A DNA stretch of 28,859 bases from positions 1 through 28,859 of IMG/VR virus record IMGVR_UViG_3300037486_000432, one strand, 5' to 3'. This document shows positions 7,188 to 25,253 of this stretch, piece after piece. The stretch is from a virus. The position numbers and the translations under genes are program-made. Every line of letters begins with the position of its first letter. Within the stretch, counting starts at the first letter, position 1. The notes beneath the pieces are model-generated. The model had not been told where the DNA came from. It worked only from the letters and a program-made list of their open reading frames with translations, and made no database searches.

Positions 7188-7928
7188 CTATCTGCTTTCT
7201 TTGCGCCCCTTGGCCAGATTGTCCCTGGCCCACAAAGGCTGCAAGTTTGAAAAGTGAAAGCACTTTTTCTGTTGTTCCCCGTCTGTCAAATCGAAACTCG
7301 CGCACGGCCGGATGTGGTCGATGTGCCAGCTCCCGTAGTTGTCCCAGGTCATGCCGGGCTGAAATTGCTGTTCGAGGTGCACCCGAAGTTCGGGGACCGA
7401 GCAGCCTAACAATTCCATGGTGTGGGCGGCTTTTGCGCCGATCCCACGAAGCGCGTTTTTAACCCGATTCCGGCAATTCAGCAGCACCCGAAAACCCGGG
7501 TCGTTCTTACAGCGGTCCCGCCGGTAGGTCACCACGTAAGCCTGCATTTTCTCCAGGTTCCGCTCCCGCCACGCATAAACGCCGGCGAGCACCTTCTCTG
7601 GGTTGGCGGCCCGCCACTTCCGATTCCATGCAAGGAACTTCCCCGGGTCGGCAGCATAGCTCGCTCGCTGCCGCTCCCGGGCCGCCGCAGCGGCTGTCTC
7701 CCGGTTGTTGGCATACCACTTCCGGCACGCCGCCCGGGCCTTCTCTCGGTTGGCGGCCTGCCATGCCCGGCTTGTCGCGGTATCCCTTTCCCGATTGGCC
7801 GCATGCCACTTCCGGCGTGCCGCATTAGCCTTCTCCGGGTTGGCGGCTCGCCACGCCCGCGCCGCCGCGAGCATCTTCTCCCGGTTGGCCAGGTAATACT
7901 GCCGCTTCTGTTCTTTTCTATCGCTCAC
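7188..7928 (-). CDS. HNH endonuclease with eight 15-residue repeats
   Basis: The C-terminal domain carries an HNH nuclease core. It has HIDH (202-205), then the conserved FxNLQPLW segment with N228 and a DNLAKG end (N237). HNH enzymes of this kind cut or nick DNA and are frequent free-standing homing nucleases in phages. The N-terminal half (about 12-135) consists of eight imperfect 15-residue repeats of the pattern xAANxEKxxAxxRxW, probably a basic helical DNA-binding array. The start is GTG at 7928. An overlapping ATG two bases upstream is out of frame and hits TGA at once. The gene lies between two fibre genes and has its own TTGACA promoter-like site, consistent with an inserted selfish element. 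Whether it still moves cannot be judged. Confidence 0.88.
   Translation of the reverse strand: MSDRKEQKRQYYLANREKMLAAARAWRAANPEKANAARRKWHAANRERDTATSRAWQAANREKARAACRKWYANNRETAAAAARERQRASYAADPGKFLAWNRKWRAANPEKVLAGVYAWRERNLEKMQAYVVTYRRDRCKNDPGFRVLLNCRNRVKNALRGIGAKAAHTMELLGCSVPELRVHLEQQFQPGMTWDNYGSWHIDHIRPCASFDLTDGEQQKKCFHFSNLQPLWARDNLAKGRKESR
7524..7895 (-). repeat. Imperfect 45-bp tandem repeats in the HNH gene
   Basis: Eight units, each about 45 bases, encode the repeat with the core AANREK/AANPEK and a terminal Trp. The DNA copies diverge but keep a common GGTTGGCGGC-like core on the plus strand. One unit (around residues 86-104) is expanded to 19 residues. The pattern points to expansion by unequal crossing-over or slippage followed by divergence. 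Confidence 0.8.
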
Positions 7929-13857: not shown

Positions 13858-14613
13858 TTATGGGGTGACGTTGATGTCACCCAGGTATTTGATGTTGAAG
13901 TAGCCGTCGAACAGGTCGTCGATGTCGGCATCCAAAAGAACCGTGTTGTAAAGGCAAACCTCGGCAAAGTAATGCTGCTGCCCGCCGCCATTGTAAAGCC
14001 CGATTGTTCCGGCCTTCATAGTGGTGACGTTCGTGTCTCCGCTGTCCTCGCCGAGGTGAGTCTTATTACTGCTGAACCTCGGAACCCCGCTGGCGGAAGT
14101 TCGACGAAAAGCTTTCACTTTCCATCCGGTATTATCGCTGGCTGCGGAATTTTTCAACTCTGGGTTAGCGACGATATACATGTAGGGAACAAAAAGCGCT
14201 CCGGGGGTGTCCCGCATCTGATAATTCCCGGAATGATCCGACATCACAATGGTGGTTCCACTCACGAGCTTCAACACAGAAATCATGGTGAAGTCACCAA
14301 GATTGACGGACGTCATATCGAAATGATGCCATCCGTCGGGAAAGTAAAGAGCGGAATGACCGGAGTTTGCCATGTAACCGGCCGACTTGTAATGAGGCGC
14401 TTTGGTCGCGTGAGGAACCGCATTGTCCAGAGTCGCCGAAAGATCCGTCCAGTTGTTCACCACGGGATCGTTGTCCGCCAAGCCGTCGTCGTCATAGTCG
14501 GCGGAGTCATACCAACGGATCAGCCCGGCGTAGTCGGAGGGCAGCGCCGTGTAAGGCGACGCCCCGGCGACTGCCGCCAGAAAAGCTGTGTCTCTGAGAA
14601 CGAAGGCGCTCAT
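13858..14613 (-). CDS. LamG-like lectin-domain fibre protein (251 aa)
   Basis: I start at 14613, where ATG overlaps the previous stop as TAATG, rather than at the in-frame ATG at 14772 inside the previous gene. The N-terminus carries the RDxAFLA module seen in the next gene. GLIRWYDSADYDDDG (about 32-46) and VNNWTDLSA match the opening of LamG/concanavalin A-like domains. The C-terminus has FAEVCLYNTVLLDADIDDL and NIKYLGDI, the usual closing strand and helix. The protein is therefore nearly a single lectin-type domain joined to an attachment module. It is likely a receptor-binding appendage. Sugar specificity cannot be read. Confidence 0.78.
   Translation of the reverse strand: MSAFVLRDTAFLAAVAGASPYTALPSDYAGLIRWYDSADYDDDGLADNDPVVNNWTDLSATLDNAVPHATKAPHYKSAGYMANSGHSALYFPDGWHHFDMTSVNLGDFTMISVLKLVSGTTIVMSDHSGNYQMRDTPGALFVPYMYIVANPELKNSAASDNTGWKVKAFRRTSASGVPRFSSNKTHLGEDSGDTNVTTMKAGTIGLYNGGGQQHYFAEVCLYNTVLLDADIDDLFDGYFNIKYLGDINVTP
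13863..13882 (-). other. Inverted repeat at the junction of the two LamG genes
   Basis: GGGTGAC and GTCACCC form a perfect 7-bp stem with a 6-base loop. The repeat lies in the last codons of the 251-residue gene and ends a few bases before the Shine-Dalgarno of the next gene. It may modulate coupling or mRNA stability, or may be chance within GDINVTP codons. No U-tract follows, so it is not a classical terminator. Confidence 0.35.
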
Positions 14614-15284
14614 TAGGCTTCCACCGCGTAGGCCGCAACGATATTCGCGTCGCCGGCCGCCCGCGCGTAAAGAGTCAGGACACCGATCTTGTTGGCCGCA
14701 ATCGTGGCGGGTTTTGTCCCCACAAAACGCCAGGCCGCGTTGAAGGTCAACGTGCGGTCGCTGCCGTCGCAAACCAGAATCGCGGTAACGCTCCGGCCCT
14801 CGTCCTCGTTGGAAACTTCAAGCGAAAGATTCCCGGTCAGACTGATAACCCGGTAGGCTTCTTCCAGCATGTCCAGCGTGATGTTCGCGTTGTAGACTTC
14901 CGTCTTCTGGCCGAGCCGAAGGTTTCCGTCGACCAGCAACTCGTCGTTGGTCGAATCCCAGTTCAGCTTCGCGTCTGCCGCTAGCGCCTCGGGCGCTCCG
15001 CCGTCGTTGAACTGGAGGTCTCCTCCGGAGCCGGCGACAACCGCGTCCGCGCCGTCCGCTCCGTCAAGCCCATCGGCTCCGGCGGGACCGGCCGCGCCGC
15101 CCGCGCCAGTAGGACCGGCGGGACCCGAGGTTCCCTGGATGCCCTGGGCTCCCATGGGACCCGTCGCGCCGATCTTATCCTGCGGGACCTTGCGGAGCCG
15201 CCAACCTTCCGGGAGCAAAATGTCCATCACCACATACCCCGTTGGGGTAGCTCCGGTGAAAACTGGTAAATCTTGAACTTTCAT
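14613..15284 (-). CDS. Collagen-like tail fibre with shared C-terminal domain (223 aa)
   Basis: After an N-terminal domain of 37 residues, residues 39-79 form Gly-X-Y repeats (GATGPMGAQGIQG and onward), a collagen-like triple-helix stalk. Residues 84-125 contain GSGGDLQFNDGG and LNWDSTNDELLVDGNLRLG, a linker motif common in phage fibres. Residues 148-223 (from ISLTGN to DANIVAAYAVEA) are closely similar to the C-terminus of the 349-residue fibre encoded at 17822-18871. The ATG overlaps the preceding stop as ATGA. Collagen-like fibres are trimeric, so a thin trimeric fibre with a small distal head is expected. Confidence 0.82.
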   Translation of the reverse strand: MKVQDLPVFTGATPTGYVVMDILLPEGWRLRKVPQDKIGATGPMGAQGIQGTSGPAGPTGAGGAAGPAGADGLDGADGADAVVAGSGGDLQFNDGGAPEALAADAKLNWDSTNDELLVDGNLRLGQKTEVYNANITLDMLEEAYRVISLTGNLSLEVSNEDEGRSVTAILVCDGSDRTLTFNAAWRFVGTKPATIAANKIGVLTLYARAAGDANIVAAYAVEA

Positions 15285-15491: not shown

Positions 15492-16535
15492 TTAAGCCAG
15501 GCGCACGTAGTTAATGACCGTCCGGGCCGCGACAAGATTCACAGCGCCCGCTGTGGTGCAGCTCCCGTAAAGCGCGACGGTCTTGTTGATGCCGTCGGTT
15601 GTGTAGATCACTTCGATAACAAGTTGCCCGCGCTGAGTGTCCACGAGCCGGTTTATCGACTGCTCGCTGGCCGCCACGTCGGCAGAATTCGACACGTTGT
15701 AGAGCTTGACCGCCACCACATCCGCCAGACCGACGCCCGCTTGCGCGAGGAATGCCACGGTGCAGGTAATCTTGTAGGTTCCCAGCGCCGGAAGAAGGAC
15801 CTGCGGGTTGCCCGCGACAAAGTTGACCGCCGCGTAAGCCACCTGCAACGCGTAGTTGGTGCCGGCCGGGTAATTGGTCTGCCCGTTCTGCGCGGTGTAG
15901 GATACCCCGGGGGTGCCCTGGGGACCCGCGATACCCTGCGGCCCCGTCGGCCCAACGATGCTTTCGCCAGGAAATCCGCTCGGGACAACCAAACGCCCCG
16001 CGCCAACAGTCCCGCTGACCCCGGAGAGCGCCCGCTGGAGCGTCGCCCACACGTTGCCGCTGAAATCGGTGTTCGTCACCAGATACCAGCCGGAACCCTG
16101 GACAAAAATGTAGGTGCCCGTTATGATCGACGGATTGTAGCTCGTCCGGAGAACCACGTTAGGAGCGCCCAGCGTCGGCTGGGTGAAGCCCTGCAAGGTC
16201 ACCGTATAGGCGTTGTGCCCGTTCGTTCCAGCCGTTCCCGCAGGACCGGCCGGCCCAGTAGCTCCCGTGATTCCCTCGTCGAACAGCCGGAGAAAATAGC
16301 AGGCGAGCCCTTCCCCGGAAGAGCGAGGGTTGTTGGGCAGCCCGGTCTCCAGATTGCAGGGAAGCACCCAGCGCACCTGGCCGTTCACCTCGGTCTTCGT
16401 CACGATCCCGAAAAACTGGGAAGTGAAGTTTGAAATCTGCGACGGCAGGGATTCGCAAGCCGGCGTGTTGGTAACGGTCACCCCGCACGGGTTGGAACAG
16501 CAAGTGGTGATCGTGGATTCGCAATCGCAACTCAT
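15492..16535 (-). CDS. Collagen-like fibre with C1q/TNF-like C-terminal domain (347 aa)
   Basis: The first 30 residues contain six cysteines (C3, C5, C12, C13, C17, C27), unusual for a phage virion protein. Two Gly-X-Y stretches follow (about 88-106 and 194-210, the latter GPTGPQGIAGPQGTPG), separated by a compact domain with YIFVQGSGWYLVTN. The C-terminal part (about 222-347) has the strand pattern of C1q/TNF or BclA-type jelly rolls: GTYKITCTVAF, VVAVKLYNVSN, QLVIEVIYTTDG, KTVALYGSC and a final YVRLA. Such domains trimerise collagen-like stalks and bind surfaces. It starts one base after the lipoprotein gene stop (TGATATG). Confidence 0.8.
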   Translation of the reverse strand: MSCDCESTITTCCSNPCGVTVTNTPACESLPSQISNFTSQFFGIVTKTEVNGQVRWVLPCNLETGLPNNPRSSGEGLACYFLRLFDEGITGATGPAGPAGTAGTNGHNAYTVTLQGFTQPTLGAPNVVLRTSYNPSIITGTYIFVQGSGWYLVTNTDFSGNVWATLQRALSGVSGTVGAGRLVVPSGFPGESIVGPTGPQGIAGPQGTPGVSYTAQNGQTNYPAGTNYALQVAYAAVNFVAGNPQVLLPALGTYKITCTVAFLAQAGVGLADVVAVKLYNVSNSADVAASEQSINRLVDTQRGQLVIEVIYTTDGINKTVALYGSCTTAGAVNLVAARTVINYVRLA

Positions 16536-19740: not shown

Positions 19741-21018
19741 TCAGTCCTCGCAGACACCGACAGTCGAAAACGAGTCGGCCCCGCTGTAGGAGCTGGCGTC
19801 GACGTCGCAGCAGTTCACGAGACCCAGGTCGGCCTTGCAGCGCCGATACAGAATGTGGATGATGTGCTGCGGGCGTTTCGGGCGGTAGGCCCGAGTGATC
19901 TGATACTTGTGCCAACCGTAGTCGCCCCACTGGTTGCACGTATTGTCAATGACATAGTGCCAGGACAGCTCTCCCGCGTGAAGCTGAGGAGCGAACTTGA
20001 AGCTGCCCTCGCCCACATACCGCTCGGGAACGAGCCGCTCGAACGAGCCGGTCGCGACAAAGGTGCCGACTTCGTAGTCAGCTTCCAGCCAAGCCGGATT
20101 GACTTTGGCGTAGGCCGTATTCTTGAGCGCGTTGGTCACGATAACCACGGGGTCAACCAAGGCGAGCGTGCCGTCCGGGTTGAAACCGGTAGCGCGAAGC
20201 GGGCGCTGGTCGATACCGAAAGCGATGCCGCGATAGGCGGGACTCTGCTCGAACCCGTAGGCCGTGAGCATCGTCTTGCCCATTTCGTATCCGCCTTCCG
20301 TCAGCGCGATTGCGACGTTATTGACGCCGATCTCGGTGCGGAAATATTCAACCTGGTCGTGAGACCCGATGAACCGGAAATGGGGCATCCCGTTGGAGCT
20401 GGAATACCACTCGCCGAAAAGGACTTCGCGCAGATACCCCGCGAGGTATTGCAGCGCTTTGAAGGTCATGGGACCCGTCGGGAGCAACGGGGCGAACTGA
20501 ACGCCCAGGTCGGTCTCGGAGCCGCCGGTCCACAGCGAGGCGAAATCGTAGTTCGCATTCGCGGTGAATTTGCTCGCGCCGCGCAAGTAGAGCTGGGCTC
20601 GCACGTCGGCGTTGATGTATTGGACGATCAGCTTCTTCAAGCTGTCTTCCGCGCTCTCGTAGCTGCCCTTGAAAGCAGAGAAGCCTTTCTTGACGCAGAC
20701 GTTCGGGCCGCGACCACGGAAAGACTCCAGTTCGACGTTGAAGTCGATGGTGTCGGTTTTGTCCTGATGGCCGAGCTGTCCGCAGAGTTCGGTGTCACAG
20801 ACGAAAGAAGGAATTGCGAGCGAATCCCCAGGAGCCGCTTGCATCTGGACGATGTTGCGGATTGAGTCGCTGGTGCCGGACGGAAAGGTTCCGCCGCCAA
20901 TGAGGTTCAGGTAAGGCGCATTCGCGGCCAGGGCTCGCGCGATAGATCCAACGATTCGGTTGGTGTCTTTCGAGGCGATATCACTGATGGCCGGGGCGTC
21001 TTCGCAGGTATAAGCCAT
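19741..21018 (-). CDS. Probable major capsid protein (425 aa)
   Basis: Position and setting point to the major capsid protein. It follows the portal and scaffold genes, has by far the longest structured leader in the window, and is followed by strong hairpins, as expected for a highly expressed gene. The length, 425 residues, fits HK97-fold capsid proteins. The N-terminal 70 residues are small-residue-rich (NLIGGGTFPSGTSD). Pairs of cysteines (C74/C79 and a CC near the C-terminus) are notable. I see no diagnostic motif, so the fold is inferred. The ATG lies just after a small inverted repeat and has no Shine-Dalgarno. Confidence 0.75.
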   Translation of the reverse strand: MAYTCEDAPAISDIASKDTNRIVGSIARALAANAPYLNLIGGGTFPSGTSDSIRNIVQMQAAPGDSLAIPSFVCDTELCGQLGHQDKTDTIDFNVELESFRGRGPNVCVKKGFSAFKGSYESAEDSLKKLIVQYINADVRAQLYLRGASKFTANANYDFASLWTGGSETDLGVQFAPLLPTGPMTFKALQYLAGYLREVLFGEWYSSSNGMPHFRFIGSHDQVEYFRTEIGVNNVAIALTEGGYEMGKTMLTAYGFEQSPAYRGIAFGIDQRPLRATGFNPDGTLALVDPVVIVTNALKNTAYAKVNPAWLEADYEVGTFVATGSFERLVPERYVGEGSFKFAPQLHAGELSWHYVIDNTCNQWGDYGWHKYQITRAYRPKRPQHIIHILYRRCKADLGLVNCCDVDASSYSGADSFSTVGVCED

Positions 21019-21209
21019 AACTAAGAGTCTCCGAGACTGATTTTTGGCGTCTCTCCCAACTCCGGCTAATTTCCGCCGAAGTGGATCTTGTGTGTGCTAC
21101 CGTGCTGTGGCCATCAGCGTTAGGCCGTGCCCCGGGAGCCGCGCGAGACGCCTAGTAAGGCTCACTGCTACCTTCTGCCAAAAATCGAGAAAATGTAAAC
21201 CCCGATTTT
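21019..21209 (-). promoter_or_regulatory. Structured leader region of the major capsid gene
   Basis: This 191-base stretch is the longest non-coding gap in the window. It contains GGCGTCTC (21046-21053) paired with GAGACGCC (21145-21152), which would close a large structure. AGTCTC/GAGACT (21026-21038) lies 8 bases before the capsid ATG. No clear -35/-10 promoter is visible. It may hold a processing site, a promoter for a phage-specific polymerase or a translation-control element. A possible 22-codon GTG reading frame inside it is not convincing. Confidence 0.55.
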
Positions 21210-21210
21210 T
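21180..21210 (-). terminator. Possible weak terminator after the glycosyltransferase block
   Basis: AAAAATCG and CGATTTTT form a perfect 8-bp inverted repeat with a 15-base loop, starting in the stop codon region of the 246-residue gene. A-run and U-run arms resemble an intrinsic terminator, but the GC core is only two base pairs (extended by G-U pairs). It may separate the glycosyltransferase block from capsid transcription. Confidence 0.4.
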
Positions 21211-21950
21211 CAGCGGCCGAGAAACTGCCGGCGAGCCATCCGGTAAAGCGAATCGTCCTTGACGCCGTGAACGAACGAGTGCTCCCGCAAGCAATACTTG
21301 AAGGTATCCTCGTCCAATGTGGCTCGTCCGCAACAGTTCCACATGCGAGGAGAAAATTCCACGCCCCACCGGGCGAATTTTGGGAACAAGTAGATATCCC
21401 ACGCCTCTTTGGCCGGCACACCGCTAACCGTGACCCCCTTAACAAGCCACGTCAACCAGTCCATGTCCCCGGAGCACATGAGGTTACCGTTGGCATGGTG
21501 GTGGTAGTGATACGTTTCCGCGCCCACGATGTAGACTTTGTTCGGGCTGTTTAAACGGTCCCATTCGGCGTGCATTTCCGACAGCCAGTTTTTTGAAGTC
21601 GGGCAACAGTCGGCTTCAAAGGGGAAGATCCATTTGTAGTCCGGGATTTTTCTGCCTCGTCGCATATTGTAGAACCACTCGACGGCCGAGAACCAAAGCA
21701 CCCAGGACCCCCAGGGGTGCCCGGCCGCCCGGCTCGTGGTTGTGAGCAGGTGCGTGTTAAACCGGCCGGACACCTTCTTGACGGTGGCCGGATCGTGTCC
21801 AGAATCGAATCTGGCGACGAAGAGAAAATCGGTGTCCTGGCGCTTGACCGGCTCCAGGTCCGCCAGAAAATTGGCCAGCCGGAGCGCCTTGGGTCTGTCA
21901 CCTGGCCAAAATTGCACGGCCACTAAACCCTTCTGTGGTTTTTCACTCAT
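21210..21950 (-). CDS. Glycosyltransferase-like protein, GT-A type (246 aa)
   Basis: The fold is judged from pattern. An N-terminal alpha/beta region (VAVQFWPGDRPKALRLANFLADL) precedes strands ending in KWIFPFEADCCP (106-117), where EAD sits like the DxD metal-binding motif of GT-A enzymes. HHHANGNLMCSGD (150-162) and EHSFVHGVKD (223-232) are also likely metal or substrate sites; a late HG motif is common in GT-A enzymes. The DxD is degenerate, so activity is uncertain. It lies four bases after the 237-residue glycosyltransferase-like gene and is the last gene before the capsid leader. Confidence 0.6.
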   Translation of the reverse strand: MSEKPQKGLVAVQFWPGDRPKALRLANFLADLEPVKRQDTDFLFVARFDSGHDPATVKKVSGRFNTHLLTTTSRAAGHPWGSWVLWFSAVEWFYNMRRGRKIPDYKWIFPFEADCCPTSKNWLSEMHAEWDRLNSPNKVYIVGAETYHYHHHANGNLMCSGDMDWLTWLVKGVTVSGVPAKEAWDIYLFPKFARWGVEFSPRMWNCCGRATLDEDTFKYCLREHSFVHGVKDDSLYRMARRQFLGR

Positions 21951-21953
21951 AAT

Positions 21954-22667
21954 CTACCGGTAGATGTGCCAGGGAGCCCGCATTTGGGGCGGGCCAGCCT
22001 GCGTGTAGTGCTTCGCGTAGGCGTGCCACACGAGCTTGGTGTTGTGGAGATACCCCAGAGCGTAAAGGGACTCCGCCAAATTCAAATAGGAGGAGTCGAT
22101 ACAGTGCACCTCCTGCGCGGCCAGCACCTGCGGCATCCAATCCCACGCGGACGGACGGGGCGTGACAAAAATGTGCTTCAAATTCGCAGGGAGAAGTTGG
22201 CGAACCACATTGAACGCCCGGCTCGGATCCTCGTGGATCAGCGCCACCGGCTCTTTTTGGGTAGGCTCCGCCATCCGGAGAGAAGGAGGGAGCTGGAAGG
22301 CGGACCAGCGCAGGTTGAAATTAATCCCGAGCTGGTGGTAGAAAGACTCGTCCCAGCGGTCGATATTGAAGCCCGAATCCGCGAATAGGCCGAGCCGCTT
22401 CGCATCAAGACACGATGGGATCCAGCGGAACCGGACGTCATCGTAACCGAGCGCCCCTAACACTTGGATTTGGGGAAGGTCTCCGTAGAGCCTTCGAACA
22501 TCCTGGATGTATTTAATGTCTGTCAGGATGATCATGCTCTTCGTGGTCGCCGCCAAGGTGCGGTAGAGTCCGTTCAGAATCAAGGCATCGCCCAACTCAA
22601 GGTGCCCGAAAATGACCAGTTTGTCCGGGGGAGACGGGATGTTGGTGCCCCTAGGAAATGATTTCAT
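21954..22667 (-). CDS. Glycosyltransferase-like protein, GT-B (GT9-like) type (237 aa)
   Basis: The N-terminus KLVIFGHLELGDALILNGLYRTL resembles the LGD-containing nucleotide-sugar fold start of heptosyltransferase-type (GT9) enzymes. Near the end, EVHCIDSSYLNLAESLYALG matches the donor-binding Asp-Ser-Ser, then Ala-Glu, motif of the same class. At 237 residues it is shorter than typical GT9 enzymes (about 320-350), so part of a domain may be missing or the family is reduced. It overlaps the preceding glycosyltransferase by ATGA. A sugar-transfer role is likely by motif, but donor and acceptor are unknown. Confidence 0.65.
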   Translation of the reverse strand: MKSFPRGTNIPSPPDKLVIFGHLELGDALILNGLYRTLAATTKSMIILTDIKYIQDVRRLYGDLPQIQVLGALGYDDVRFRWIPSCLDAKRLGLFADSGFNIDRWDESFYHQLGINFNLRWSAFQLPPSLRMAEPTQKEPVALIHEDPSRAFNVVRQLLPANLKHIFVTPRPSAWDWMPQVLAAQEVHCIDSSYLNLAESLYALGYLHNTKLVWHAYAKHYTQAGPPQMRAPWHIYR

Positions 22668-23584
22668 GGGGTGTTAGGGGTCTTTTGAAAAGTGTTATAG
22701 GGGCCGTAAACGCACGTCCCGATATGGCCGCACACGAGCCCCAAGTCCACGTGGGCCACGTGGCCGGACTCGTTTGACCGGATGCAGAACGTCACGTCTT
22801 CGCCCATGCCGAGCGATGAATTAGTTCGAGCGCGGGTCAGTGCCTGCTCCACTTTCTCGTAAGCCGCAAGACACTTTTCTCCGGTCATCGGACCCTTGGA
22901 CAGCAAGTCCTGGAGCAGTTCCAGATCCCTGATGGCGCTGTGCTCGGACGAGGTAAACCACTGCCCGCCTTTGCCGCCCTTCCGGGCCAGGTTCGGGTAG
23001 CGCTTCTCAACAGCTTCATAGACCGCCCGGTGAATCAACAGGCAGCCGGTGGCAACCCAGCGGGTCGGGACAACCTCGTCGTGCGGAGCTTTGCGGGCGT
23101 GCGCGGACATGCCCGGGGTATTCGCGCCCTCGCCAAACATAGGTGCCCCGTGCCGATGTCTCCCGAAGTAGAGAGCGCCAACCAGCGTTTTCTGGTGACC
23201 GAGCAACCGCTCCAGCGCGTTGAAAGAAGCGAAGGGTTCCTTGAGGTTGAATCCCGTATTTCCGTTGAACCACTTGGCGCTTCCGAAGGGAACAACCATG
23301 TCATCGTCAATGGTGAGCATCCAATCACAATTTGATTTAAGAAACAGGTCGGCGCAGGAATTCCTGGAATGCGCCACAAATGCGTCACCATGATTGAGCG
23401 CTACCGAATGCCGCCGATTGTCAATGAGTCGCATCACCGAGTAGGCGGTGATCGGGTTGGTCATTTTTCCCCATGGCAAAACAACCATGACCTTTTCGTT
23501 CACATAACGCGTCTCAAATACCTTGCGCGGCGACGTAGCGACAAGCGGAATGCCAGAAGCTTTATCCGGTCCCTCGGTGCTCAC
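22664..23584 (-). CDS. Glycosyltransferase, GT-A (GT2-like) type (306 aa)
   Basis: This has the clearest glycosyltransferase motifs of the three. After the first strand (KVMVVLPWGKM) comes HSRNSCADLFL (72-82), then DWMLTIDDDMVVP (87-99), whose DDD at 93-95 is the metal-binding DxD site. LVGALYFGR (134-141) and GEDVTFC (261-267) with an acidic pair fit the catalytic base. VCGHIG (284-289) provides the C-terminal metal-binding His. The start is GTG at 23584, overlapping the scaffold stop as GTGA. Such enzymes transfer sugars to phage or host surface molecules, or to modified DNA bases. Which one applies here is not shown. Confidence 0.78.
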   Translation of the reverse strand: MSTEGPDKASGIPLVATSPRKVFETRYVNEKVMVVLPWGKMTNPITAYSVMRLIDNRRHSVALNHGDAFVAHSRNSCADLFLKSNCDWMLTIDDDMVVPFGSAKWFNGNTGFNLKEPFASFNALERLLGHQKTLVGALYFGRHRHGAPMFGEGANTPGMSAHARKAPHDEVVPTRWVATGCLLIHRAVYEAVEKRYPNLARKGGKGGQWFTSSEHSAIRDLELLQDLLSKGPMTGEKCLAAYEKVEQALTRARTNSSLGMGEDVTFCIRSNESGHVAHVDLGLVCGHIGTCVYGPYNTFQKTPNTP

Positions 23585-24930
23585 AGATTGGCGCGGCTCC
23601 GTTCATTGATAATCTGATCCCGGATGGCATCCAGCGCGGAGCCGGTATTGCCGCCGAAAAAGTCGTCCTGCTTCGTGGGCAGCGGCCTGTTTCCTGGCGC
23701 GGGCGCGGCGGAGTCTTTCAGCCGGCCGACGCTGGCTTTCTTGAAGCGTTCCAGCTTCTCTTTCAGCTCGTCGCGCTCCTTCGTAATCGCCGTGAGTTGC
23801 GCCACGGCCGACTTATGCACGTTCTGGAGGTTGAAAAACTGGGCCAGCCCTGTCAACAGCGTCGCCCGCATCTTCGGGGAATCGTCGTCGAGCGCGACTT
23901 TCAGCTCGCCCCGGATCTGGCGCACGAACTGGTTGTGCGCTGTGGCGGCTTTCTTCTCTTCCTCGGTAGCGCCCGCTTTAGGGGCCTGATCTTTCGTCCA
24001 CTGGAGATTGCCGAGAAAATCGTTCAAGTGCTGCTCGGTGGCCCGGTTGTGCGAAACGGCGCTGTCCTGCCACGCCTTCTCGCGCTCGGACACATAGGCC
24101 GCGACGTTCTCCTTGGCGGACTTCATCGCGTTCTCCCGATTGAACTTGTGCAGTTCGATGTCGGTCAGCTTCTGTTCGACGATGCGCCGGATCGTGCCGT
24201 CTTCCACGGTCTCCAGAATCTTCTCCATCTTGACGGCCGACGGACCCCCGTATTTCCGAATCGCGTTGATCGTATCGTCGTCGACGCTGGGGGACTTCCG
24301 GAGCTGCGCGTAGATGAATTCCTCGGCTTGTGCAATATCCGTGTTCCACTTTTTGAACTGCGGATCCGCGTCGATGTCGAGCTTGGCCCGGAACTTCCGA
24401 AGGTCTTCCAGTTCGGCCTTCGTCTCCTGGGGCACCGGATCCGCCAGCTTGGTCTTGGCGTCTTCCAGTTCCTTGGTCAGCGCTGCGAGCTTTTCATCAT
24501 ATTCGTGGTAACGCTGCGACGCCTGGGTCTTCACAAAAGCGAAAGCTTCGTGCGACTTCCGGCTCGCGCCCTCGGGGAGCTGCGGCGCGTCTTTGAACGG
24601 ATCTTCGACCTGGACTTCTGGTTTCGGCTCGGGATCCGGCGCGGGGTCCGGCGCTGGGTCAGGCGCGGGATCCGGAGCAGGGTCAGGGTCCGGCGCGGGG
24701 TCCGGCGCGGGCTCTTCCTTCGGCTCCACCTTCGCCGGCACGGGTTCCGGCTCCGGCGCGTCCTCCGCCAACTTCGCTTTCTGCTGCTCCAAAAGCTTGT
24801 CCAACGCACTGCCGGTATTCGGGTCGAATTCCGGCGTTAAGTTGGCGCTGCCCTGGGCAACGAGTTTGTCATGGACCGTTTGGTTCTCTGCGGCTAGGTC
24901 CTTGAAGCCGGGCTTCGGTGTTTCTGACAT
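23581..24930 (-). CDS. Putative scaffolding protein (449 aa)
   Basis: I start at the ATG at 24930 (MSETPKPGF), nine bases past the previous stop codon, rather than at the in-frame ATG at 24966 inside that gene. Residues about 75-100 are a PAPDP low-complexity arm. Residues 110-420 are charged and helical with long coiled-coil stretches, and there are no cysteines. This composition, and the place after the portal gene and upstream of the capsid gene, are typical of scaffolding proteins that guide shell assembly. The same heptapeptide NTGSALD occurs near both ends (residues 38-44 and 428-434). No Shine-Dalgarno is seen; coupling with the upstream gene is likely. Confidence 0.75.
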   Translation of the reverse strand: MSETPKPGFKDLAAENQTVHDKLVAQGSANLTPEFDPNTGSALDKLLEQQKAKLAEDAPEPEPVPAKVEPKEEPAPDPAPDPDPAPDPAPDPAPDPAPDPEPKPEVQVEDPFKDAPQLPEGASRKSHEAFAFVKTQASQRYHEYDEKLAALTKELEDAKTKLADPVPQETKAELEDLRKFRAKLDIDADPQFKKWNTDIAQAEEFIYAQLRKSPSVDDDTINAIRKYGGPSAVKMEKILETVEDGTIRRIVEQKLTDIELHKFNRENAMKSAKENVAAYVSEREKAWQDSAVSHNRATEQHLNDFLGNLQWTKDQAPKAGATEEEKKAATAHNQFVRQIRGELKVALDDDSPKMRATLLTGLAQFFNLQNVHKSAVAQLTAITKERDELKEKLERFKKASVGRLKDSAAPAPGNRPLPTKQDDFFGGNTGSALDAIRDQIINERSRANL

Positions 24931-24938
24931 AGGGTAGG

Positions 24939-25253
24939 TTAGGTGGTTTTTTGTCCGTCGGCCCACCGGTCGTCATCCAGCGGGTCGGGGTAGCTTCTGC
25001 TGTGGGTTGCTTGATCCGGAACGGAAGGCGGGGGAAGTGTTAGGGCCAGGATACTTTTCGCGGCCGATCCCCAAGCCGCCACTTCGCCGGATCGGATAAG
25101 AATCTCGTTTGTCGGGCCTCCGTGAAGAAGCTGCGGGACCTCTTCCAGAAGCTTCGGGAGAAACTTCTGGCCGGTTGCGGTATTCAAGAACGCTCGGAAT
25201 ACCGCGCGATCTTCGCTGGACCATTCGGTGCTATCGGGGGTGATTTCTATCAT
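24939..25253 (-). CDS. Small hypothetical protein (104 aa)
   Basis: The protein is acidic and mostly helical in its first 80 residues (DRAVFRAFLNTATGQKFLPKLLEE), then Pro/Asp-rich. The sequence gives no recognised family. It lies ten bases after the portal stop, with an AAAGG-like ribosome site, and just before the scaffold gene, a position where podoviruses often keep small head-assembly proteins. Function is otherwise unknown. Confidence 0.7.
   Translation of the reverse strand: MIEITPDSTEWSSEDRAVFRAFLNTATGQKFLPKLLEEVPQLLHGGPTNEILIRSGEVAAWGSAAKSILALTLPPPSVPDQATHSRSYPDPLDDDRWADGQKTT

Follow-up and report, generated by a model that had tools for sequence, protein, structure and literature searches.

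Predicted glycosyltransferase genes between the scaffold and capsid genes of uncultured tailed phages as the probable core of a virion-glycosylation island

The genes between the scaffold-like gene and the major capsid protein gene of an IMG/VR virus record, a fragment of 28,859 bases (hereafter the window, that is, the whole stretch of DNA analysed), probably represent the constant part of an island for virion glycosylation, modular in build and located in the head-assembly gene cluster, a reading to which we give a probability of about 0.6. The literature that we located describes glycosylated particles for only a few phage isolates. In the present lineage, which is large and uncultured, a sugar island belongs to the head gene cluster throughout, and its outer cassette is apparently exchangeable. 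If the reading holds, the swapping of sugar genes gives phages a varied particle surface, in the way that bacteria vary their O-antigens, with a bearing on adsorption, recognition, and survival.

The structural genes of the window are encoded on the minus strand in the order terminase fragment, portal, scaffold-like gene, GTa, GTb, GTc, capsid, and collagen-like proteins; their roles are taken from gene order and conservation, and family models name none of them. The scaffold-like gene (23581..24966) is assigned from its place between portal and capsid, and its orthologues directly precede GTa in the relatives. The three candidate glycosyltransferase ORFs that an earlier note on this DNA had put between the scaffold and capsid genes are found on the minus strand at exactly the positions given for them: GTa at 22664..23584, GTb at 21954..22667, and GTc at 21210..21950. 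They also form, as had been proposed, one overlapping or nearly touching unit with the scaffold gene: the GTG start of GTa overlaps the scaffold stop (GTGA), the ATG of GTb overlaps the GTa stop (ATGA), and 3 nt separate the GTb stop from the GTc start. This tight packing suggests translational coupling of the block with the scaffold gene. The major capsid protein gene (19741..21018, minus strand), identified by position and conservation, starts 191 nt after GTc.

Protein searches of INPHARED with GTa, GTc, capsid, and portal gave no match at E 1e-5, and a search with GTa at E 10 gave distant matches only, two of which were inspected and do not lie beside an annotated capsid gene. Pattern scans of IMG/VR with single GTb and GTc proteins retrieved no relatives; these surfaced via neighbouring loci. 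IMG/VR scans detected 164 capsid relatives and 158 GTa relatives, 80 of each being kept for analysis, and the longest records reach about 70–75 kb. IMG/VR holds a large lineage of uncultured tailed phages with this island. Genomes of bacteria and archaea gave a single match, a 26.5-kb contig (JABFSS010000103.1; locus L015) in a Candidatus Peribacteraceae MAG, with 66% capsid identity; this contig is perhaps of phage origin and was binned with the MAG, and is no proof of a host.

Among loci fetched by the capsid protein, that is, without selection for glycosyltransferases, GTa and GTc lie inside the scaffold–capsid interval in all 60 cases where it is complete. When each distinct capsid protein is counted once, both genes occupy this interval in 61 of 61 distinct viruses, so their position is more than chance, and each is single-copy in all 24 long records; placement of the pair in unrelated parts of the relatives' genomes was not seen. 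The link to virion assembly proposed in the earlier note is thereby supported. The dN/dS ratio of GTa and GTc is about 0.1, similar to that of capsid and scaffold (with dS near saturation), and both genes are under purifying selection. GTb is present in only 7 of the 61 viruses. GTa and GTc are therefore core genes, not cargo, and GTb is accessory. The alternative that the whole block is cargo, or was inserted neutrally and plays no part in the biology of the virion, is very improbable given the universal presence and purifying selection of GTa and GTc, although GTb and the cassette genes described below do vary and the interval also receives HNH endonuclease insertions; the cargo insertion considered in the earlier note fits this variable part and does not fit GTa and GTc.

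GTc is confidently predicted to have the GT-A fold. Its AF2 model (pLDDT 88.1) aligns along almost its full length with GT-A enzymes of the PDB (Z up to 15.0), the best matches being chondroitin synthase CHSY3-CHPF (Z 15.0), B3GalT5/6, xylosyltransferase 1, and core-2 GnT, and the matches also include the capsid glycosyltransferase of chlorovirus PBCV-1 (Z 12.5). Such matches to the model indicate a GT-A enzyme and are silent on which sugar is transferred. Residues D114, D185, and H228 are invariant in 60 homologues, with the consensus EAD at 112–114, and can be read as a putative DxD-type acid pair, catalytic acid, and C-terminal histidine.

The AF2 model of GTa, built with 10 sequences, has a pLDDT of 45, and this protein is assigned by other means. 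Residues D93, D95, E262, D263, and H287 are invariant in 60 homologues and look like the DxD, xED (GED), and C-terminal His motifs of GT-A enzymes, distant viral homologues match GT2 or Anp1 (GT62) profiles at scores below the Pfam cutoffs, and two loci (L008 and L009) encode fusions of a GTa-like domain with a GT2 domain, the latter scoring above its cutoff. Taken together, the invariant motifs, the remote homologues, and the fusion make GTa very probably a GT-A glycosyltransferase. GTa further matches phrog_1574 (E 1.3e-9), as do all 10 GTa proteins scanned (best E 2.7e-10); by this profile match the GTa proteins belong to a family without an assigned function, which gains a suggested one from the island. 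Of the two GT-A-like proteins postulated earlier, GTc is thus upheld by its predicted fold and GTa by motifs and remote homologues.

The proposed GT-B or GT9 nature of GTb found no support: it has no meaningful match in Pfam, PHROG, NCBIfam, or the PDB, and with 237 residues it would be a small protein for the two domains of a GT-B enzyme. Searches of the PDB with profiles of GTa, GTc, and GTb yielded no credible match, and no strongly hydrophobic, membrane-like segment was found in any of the three proteins. A profile comparison of GTa with GTc gave no match, which we count against virion glycosylation. GTa and GTc probably act as glycosyltransferases.

Transfer of sugars to phage DNA bases, as in T4 or in TET-based hypermodification, would be another use for such enzymes, and one that we consider quite unlikely. 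The island lies in the head cluster, not among replication genes, and in the 24 long relatives, whose records are possibly incomplete, we found no thymidylate synthase/hydroxymethylase (PF00303, 0/24), TET/JBP protein (PF12851, 0/24 above cutoff), or C5 methylase (PF00145, 0/24). GTa does match phrog_842, the beta-glucosyl-HMC-alpha-glucosyltransferase family, if weakly (E 0.086), and DNA glycosylation is further favored by a remote GTa homologue in phiM12 that sits among replication genes and by a helix-turn-helix-like N-terminus of GTa in one clade. In that clade (L001, L003, L004, L005, and L006) GTa has about 50 additional N-terminal residues, and some of its members are weakly matched by helix-turn-helix profiles (HTH_31, E 0.016).

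Additional sugar genes were identified in the scaffold–capsid interval of 45 of the 61 distinct viruses, usually between GTc and the capsid leader. The most frequent are a GDP-fucose synthase-like gene (GFS, 38 intervals) and a gene for a further glycosyltransferase-like protein, GTd (35), followed by GDP-mannose 4,6-dehydratase (GMD, 17), a sulfotransferase-like gene (6), GTe, which encodes another glycosyltransferase-like protein (5), and a polysaccharide pyruvyltransferase-like gene (2). In the relatives GMD scores 506.9 bits with TIGR01472 (cutoff 415) and matches PDB entry 1n7g at E 5e-128, while GFS scores 391 bits with NF047922, below its cutoff of 500, and has GDP-L-fucose synthase as its best PDB match (E 3e-89). 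The sulfotransferase-like and pyruvyltransferase-like genes match PF13469 (2e-28) and PF04230 (5e-10), respectively, and GTd and GTe are glycosyltransferase-like by motif, without a firm family match. The scaffold–capsid interval of the window contains neither GMD nor GFS, which is again counted against virion glycosylation; since 22 of the 24 long records have a match of this dehydratase/synthase family, which in some of them lies elsewhere than in the interval, the virus of the window, known as a fragment, may also carry such a gene.

Several further features of these loci were observed. In a 694-residue GMD-like ORF (L134:12352-14436, on the same contig as L013:6439-8523) the FNHE motif is followed by an intein-like insert. 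The island of several relatives (L071, L086, L094, L151, and others) contains, at varied points, inserted endonuclease genes that are HNH-like or, once, GIY-YIG-like, and the window itself has an HNH-like ORF further downstream, at 7188-7928. One long record (G018, with locus L028) has another group of sugar genes at a distance from the head genes, at 39203-42400, with GMD and a 614-residue frame that contains several GT2-like stretches.

The fixed and variable genes differ in how they evolve with respect to the capsid. The Spearman correlation of pairwise distances with those of the capsid is 0.81 for both scaffold and portal, 0.67 for GTa, and 0.32 for GTc, and falls to 0.14 for GMD, 0.03 for GTd, and 0.00 for GFS. 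Saturation does not explain this drop, because the scaffold is more diverged than GTa and GTc and yet correlates best. GTa seems to evolve together with the capsid, whereas the extra genes seem not to and look like exchanged cassettes. From these correlations we infer that the inner step is constant and coupled to the virion and that the outer steps can be exchanged.

The main rival to virion glycosylation is that the enzymes modify LPS, capsule, or a similar structure on the surface of the infected host cell, which would block superinfection or change the receptor, the gap between scaffold and capsid being a tolerated insertion site; the vicinity of the capsid gene may indeed be one where late-gene insertions are tolerated. 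The free exchange of cassettes would suit such a role, as would the presence of GMD or GFS elsewhere in the genome in some relatives, and sets of GMD and GDP-fucose synthase in cyanophages are interpreted in this way in one report (PMC9602691). In all relatives seen, however, GTa and GTc remain within the head cluster, and the divergence of GTa follows that of the capsid. Serotype conversion of the gtrABC type finds no counterpart here: the flippase GtrA (PF04138) is found in 0 of the 24 long records, and GTa, GTb, and GTc lack membrane-like segments. The initiating sugar-lipid transferase Bac_transf is also absent from these 24, and together these absences argue against the known membrane routes. 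Soluble enzymes may instead act on lipid-linked sugars of the host. On balance, we regard modification of the host surface as unlikely, if less so than DNA glycosylation.

Under virion glycosylation, which we prefer, GTa and GTc would be soluble glycosyltransferases of the cytoplasm, produced along with the scaffold protein. The inner sugar is probably attached by GTa to one of the structural proteins of the phage, likeliest the capsid tail or a collagen-like fibre, and GTc and, in the relatives, the extra enzymes would extend or decorate the glycan on this protein, although the order of sugar addition is tentative. Many relatives probably make their own GDP-L-fucose or a related deoxysugar with the phage GMD and GDP-fucose synthase, and in some the island includes sulfotransferase- or pyruvyltransferase-like genes. 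Lineages would exchange the outer part of the glycan and keep GTa together with the capsid. The benefit could be a glycan shield or altered adsorption.

The most likely acceptor would be either the C-terminal tail of the capsid protein or a collagen-like fibre. The conserved tail (residues 401-425, encoded at 19744..19818 on the minus strand), a possible glycosylation site, has 28.5% Ser/Thr, compared with a mean of 12.3% in the body of the protein; this value is hardly above the richest body window (26.5%), which counts against the virion. Two collagen-like proteins, both encoded on the minus strand, are candidate alternatives. The product of 15492..16535 (PF01391, E 0.0011, below cut-off) has Gly-X-Y runs in 90 of 91 orthologues, and that of 14613..15284 (PF01391, E 1.4e-5, also below cut-off) in 22 of 22. 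Glycosylation of capsid or fibres by the island enzymes is plausible.

Phage-encoded glycosyltransferases, as predicted here, are described for mycobacteriophages Che8 and Rita (Freeman et al. 2023, as related in PMC11256854 and PMC12619734), and their glycans are reported on the C-termini of capsid and tail-tube proteins (PMC12619734). The capsid C-terminus in our lineage is a Ser/Thr-rich region. In mycobacteriophage Maravista, according to PMC11256854 and PMC12619734, the glycosyltransferase genes are near the 3' end of the genome, whereas here two of them lie between scaffold and capsid in every member; and, unlike in the mycobacteriophages as far as these sources describe them, nucleotide-sugar, sulfotransferase-like, and pyruvyltransferase-like genes often accompany them. 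Chlorovirus PBCV-1 (PMC5408694) encodes GMD, GDP-fucose synthase, and glycosyltransferases, much like the relatives studied here with their GMD, GDP-fucose synthase-like, and predicted glycosyltransferase genes, and its capsid glycosyltransferase shares a GTc-like GT-A fold, but it is a eukaryotic giant virus with unrelated structural genes and no placement in a scaffold–capsid interval, and its glycan is proven, while ours is proposed from genes. The cyanophages S-SCSM1 and P-SSM2 are tailed phages with GMD, GDP-fucose synthase, and several glycosyltransferases, again resembling the predicted gene set of the relatives; they are T4-like, and in the available text of PMC9602691 their sugar genes are described as acting on the host cell wall and are not placed between scaffold and capsid.

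In a literature search with most subscription papers outside its scope, we found no phage described as having a GDP-fucose cassette in the scaffold–capsid interval. The best reading of the island is, in effect, that it combines the known virion glycosylation of phages with a chlorovirus-like own supply of nucleotide sugars. More tentatively, and with somewhat less than even confidence, we propose that this uncultured tailed-phage lineage builds its own virion glycan by means of a fixed pair of inner-sugar transferases in the head cluster and swappable outer cassettes for GDP-fucose-type sugars and sulfate or pyruvate, as a counterpart of the autonomous capsid glycosylation of chloroviruses, with the particle surface diversified by cassette exchange.

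Between GTc and the capsid gene lies the capsid leader (21019..21209, minus strand), which the earlier note had described as following a hairpin. The leader is real and conserved in the relatives. The hairpin is reduced to a lone AT-rich inverted repeat of 8 nt (AAAAATCG/CGATTTTT) with a 15-nt loop, at 21180..21210 on the minus strand; it is not listed by a terminator scan, in which no canonical terminator follows GTc.

The leaders contain units with interleaved pairing, S1-S2-S1'-S2', arranged in tandem, in which S1 is followed by UAA or UUA. At least one unit occurs in 67 of 76 distinct leaders, which are related and hence not independent, as against 16 of 228 dinucleotide shuffles, and at least two occur in 38 of the 76 as against 0 of 228. 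No match to the leader was found in Rfam. The last loop is mostly 0–2 nt, short for a classical pseudoknot, and thus the two helices may be alternatives, either pseudoknot-like or switching. The leader of the window itself falls below the strict criteria of the scan; its second unit, GGCC-UAA-CGCUG-AU-GGCC-A-CAGC, which is conserved in the relatives, is visible by eye at 21104..21126 on the minus strand. Finally, in one relative (L012; 2-226, 2228-3517) the contig end has a second C-terminal capsid fragment, 76% identical, located upstream of the complete gene, which suggests a capsid duplication.
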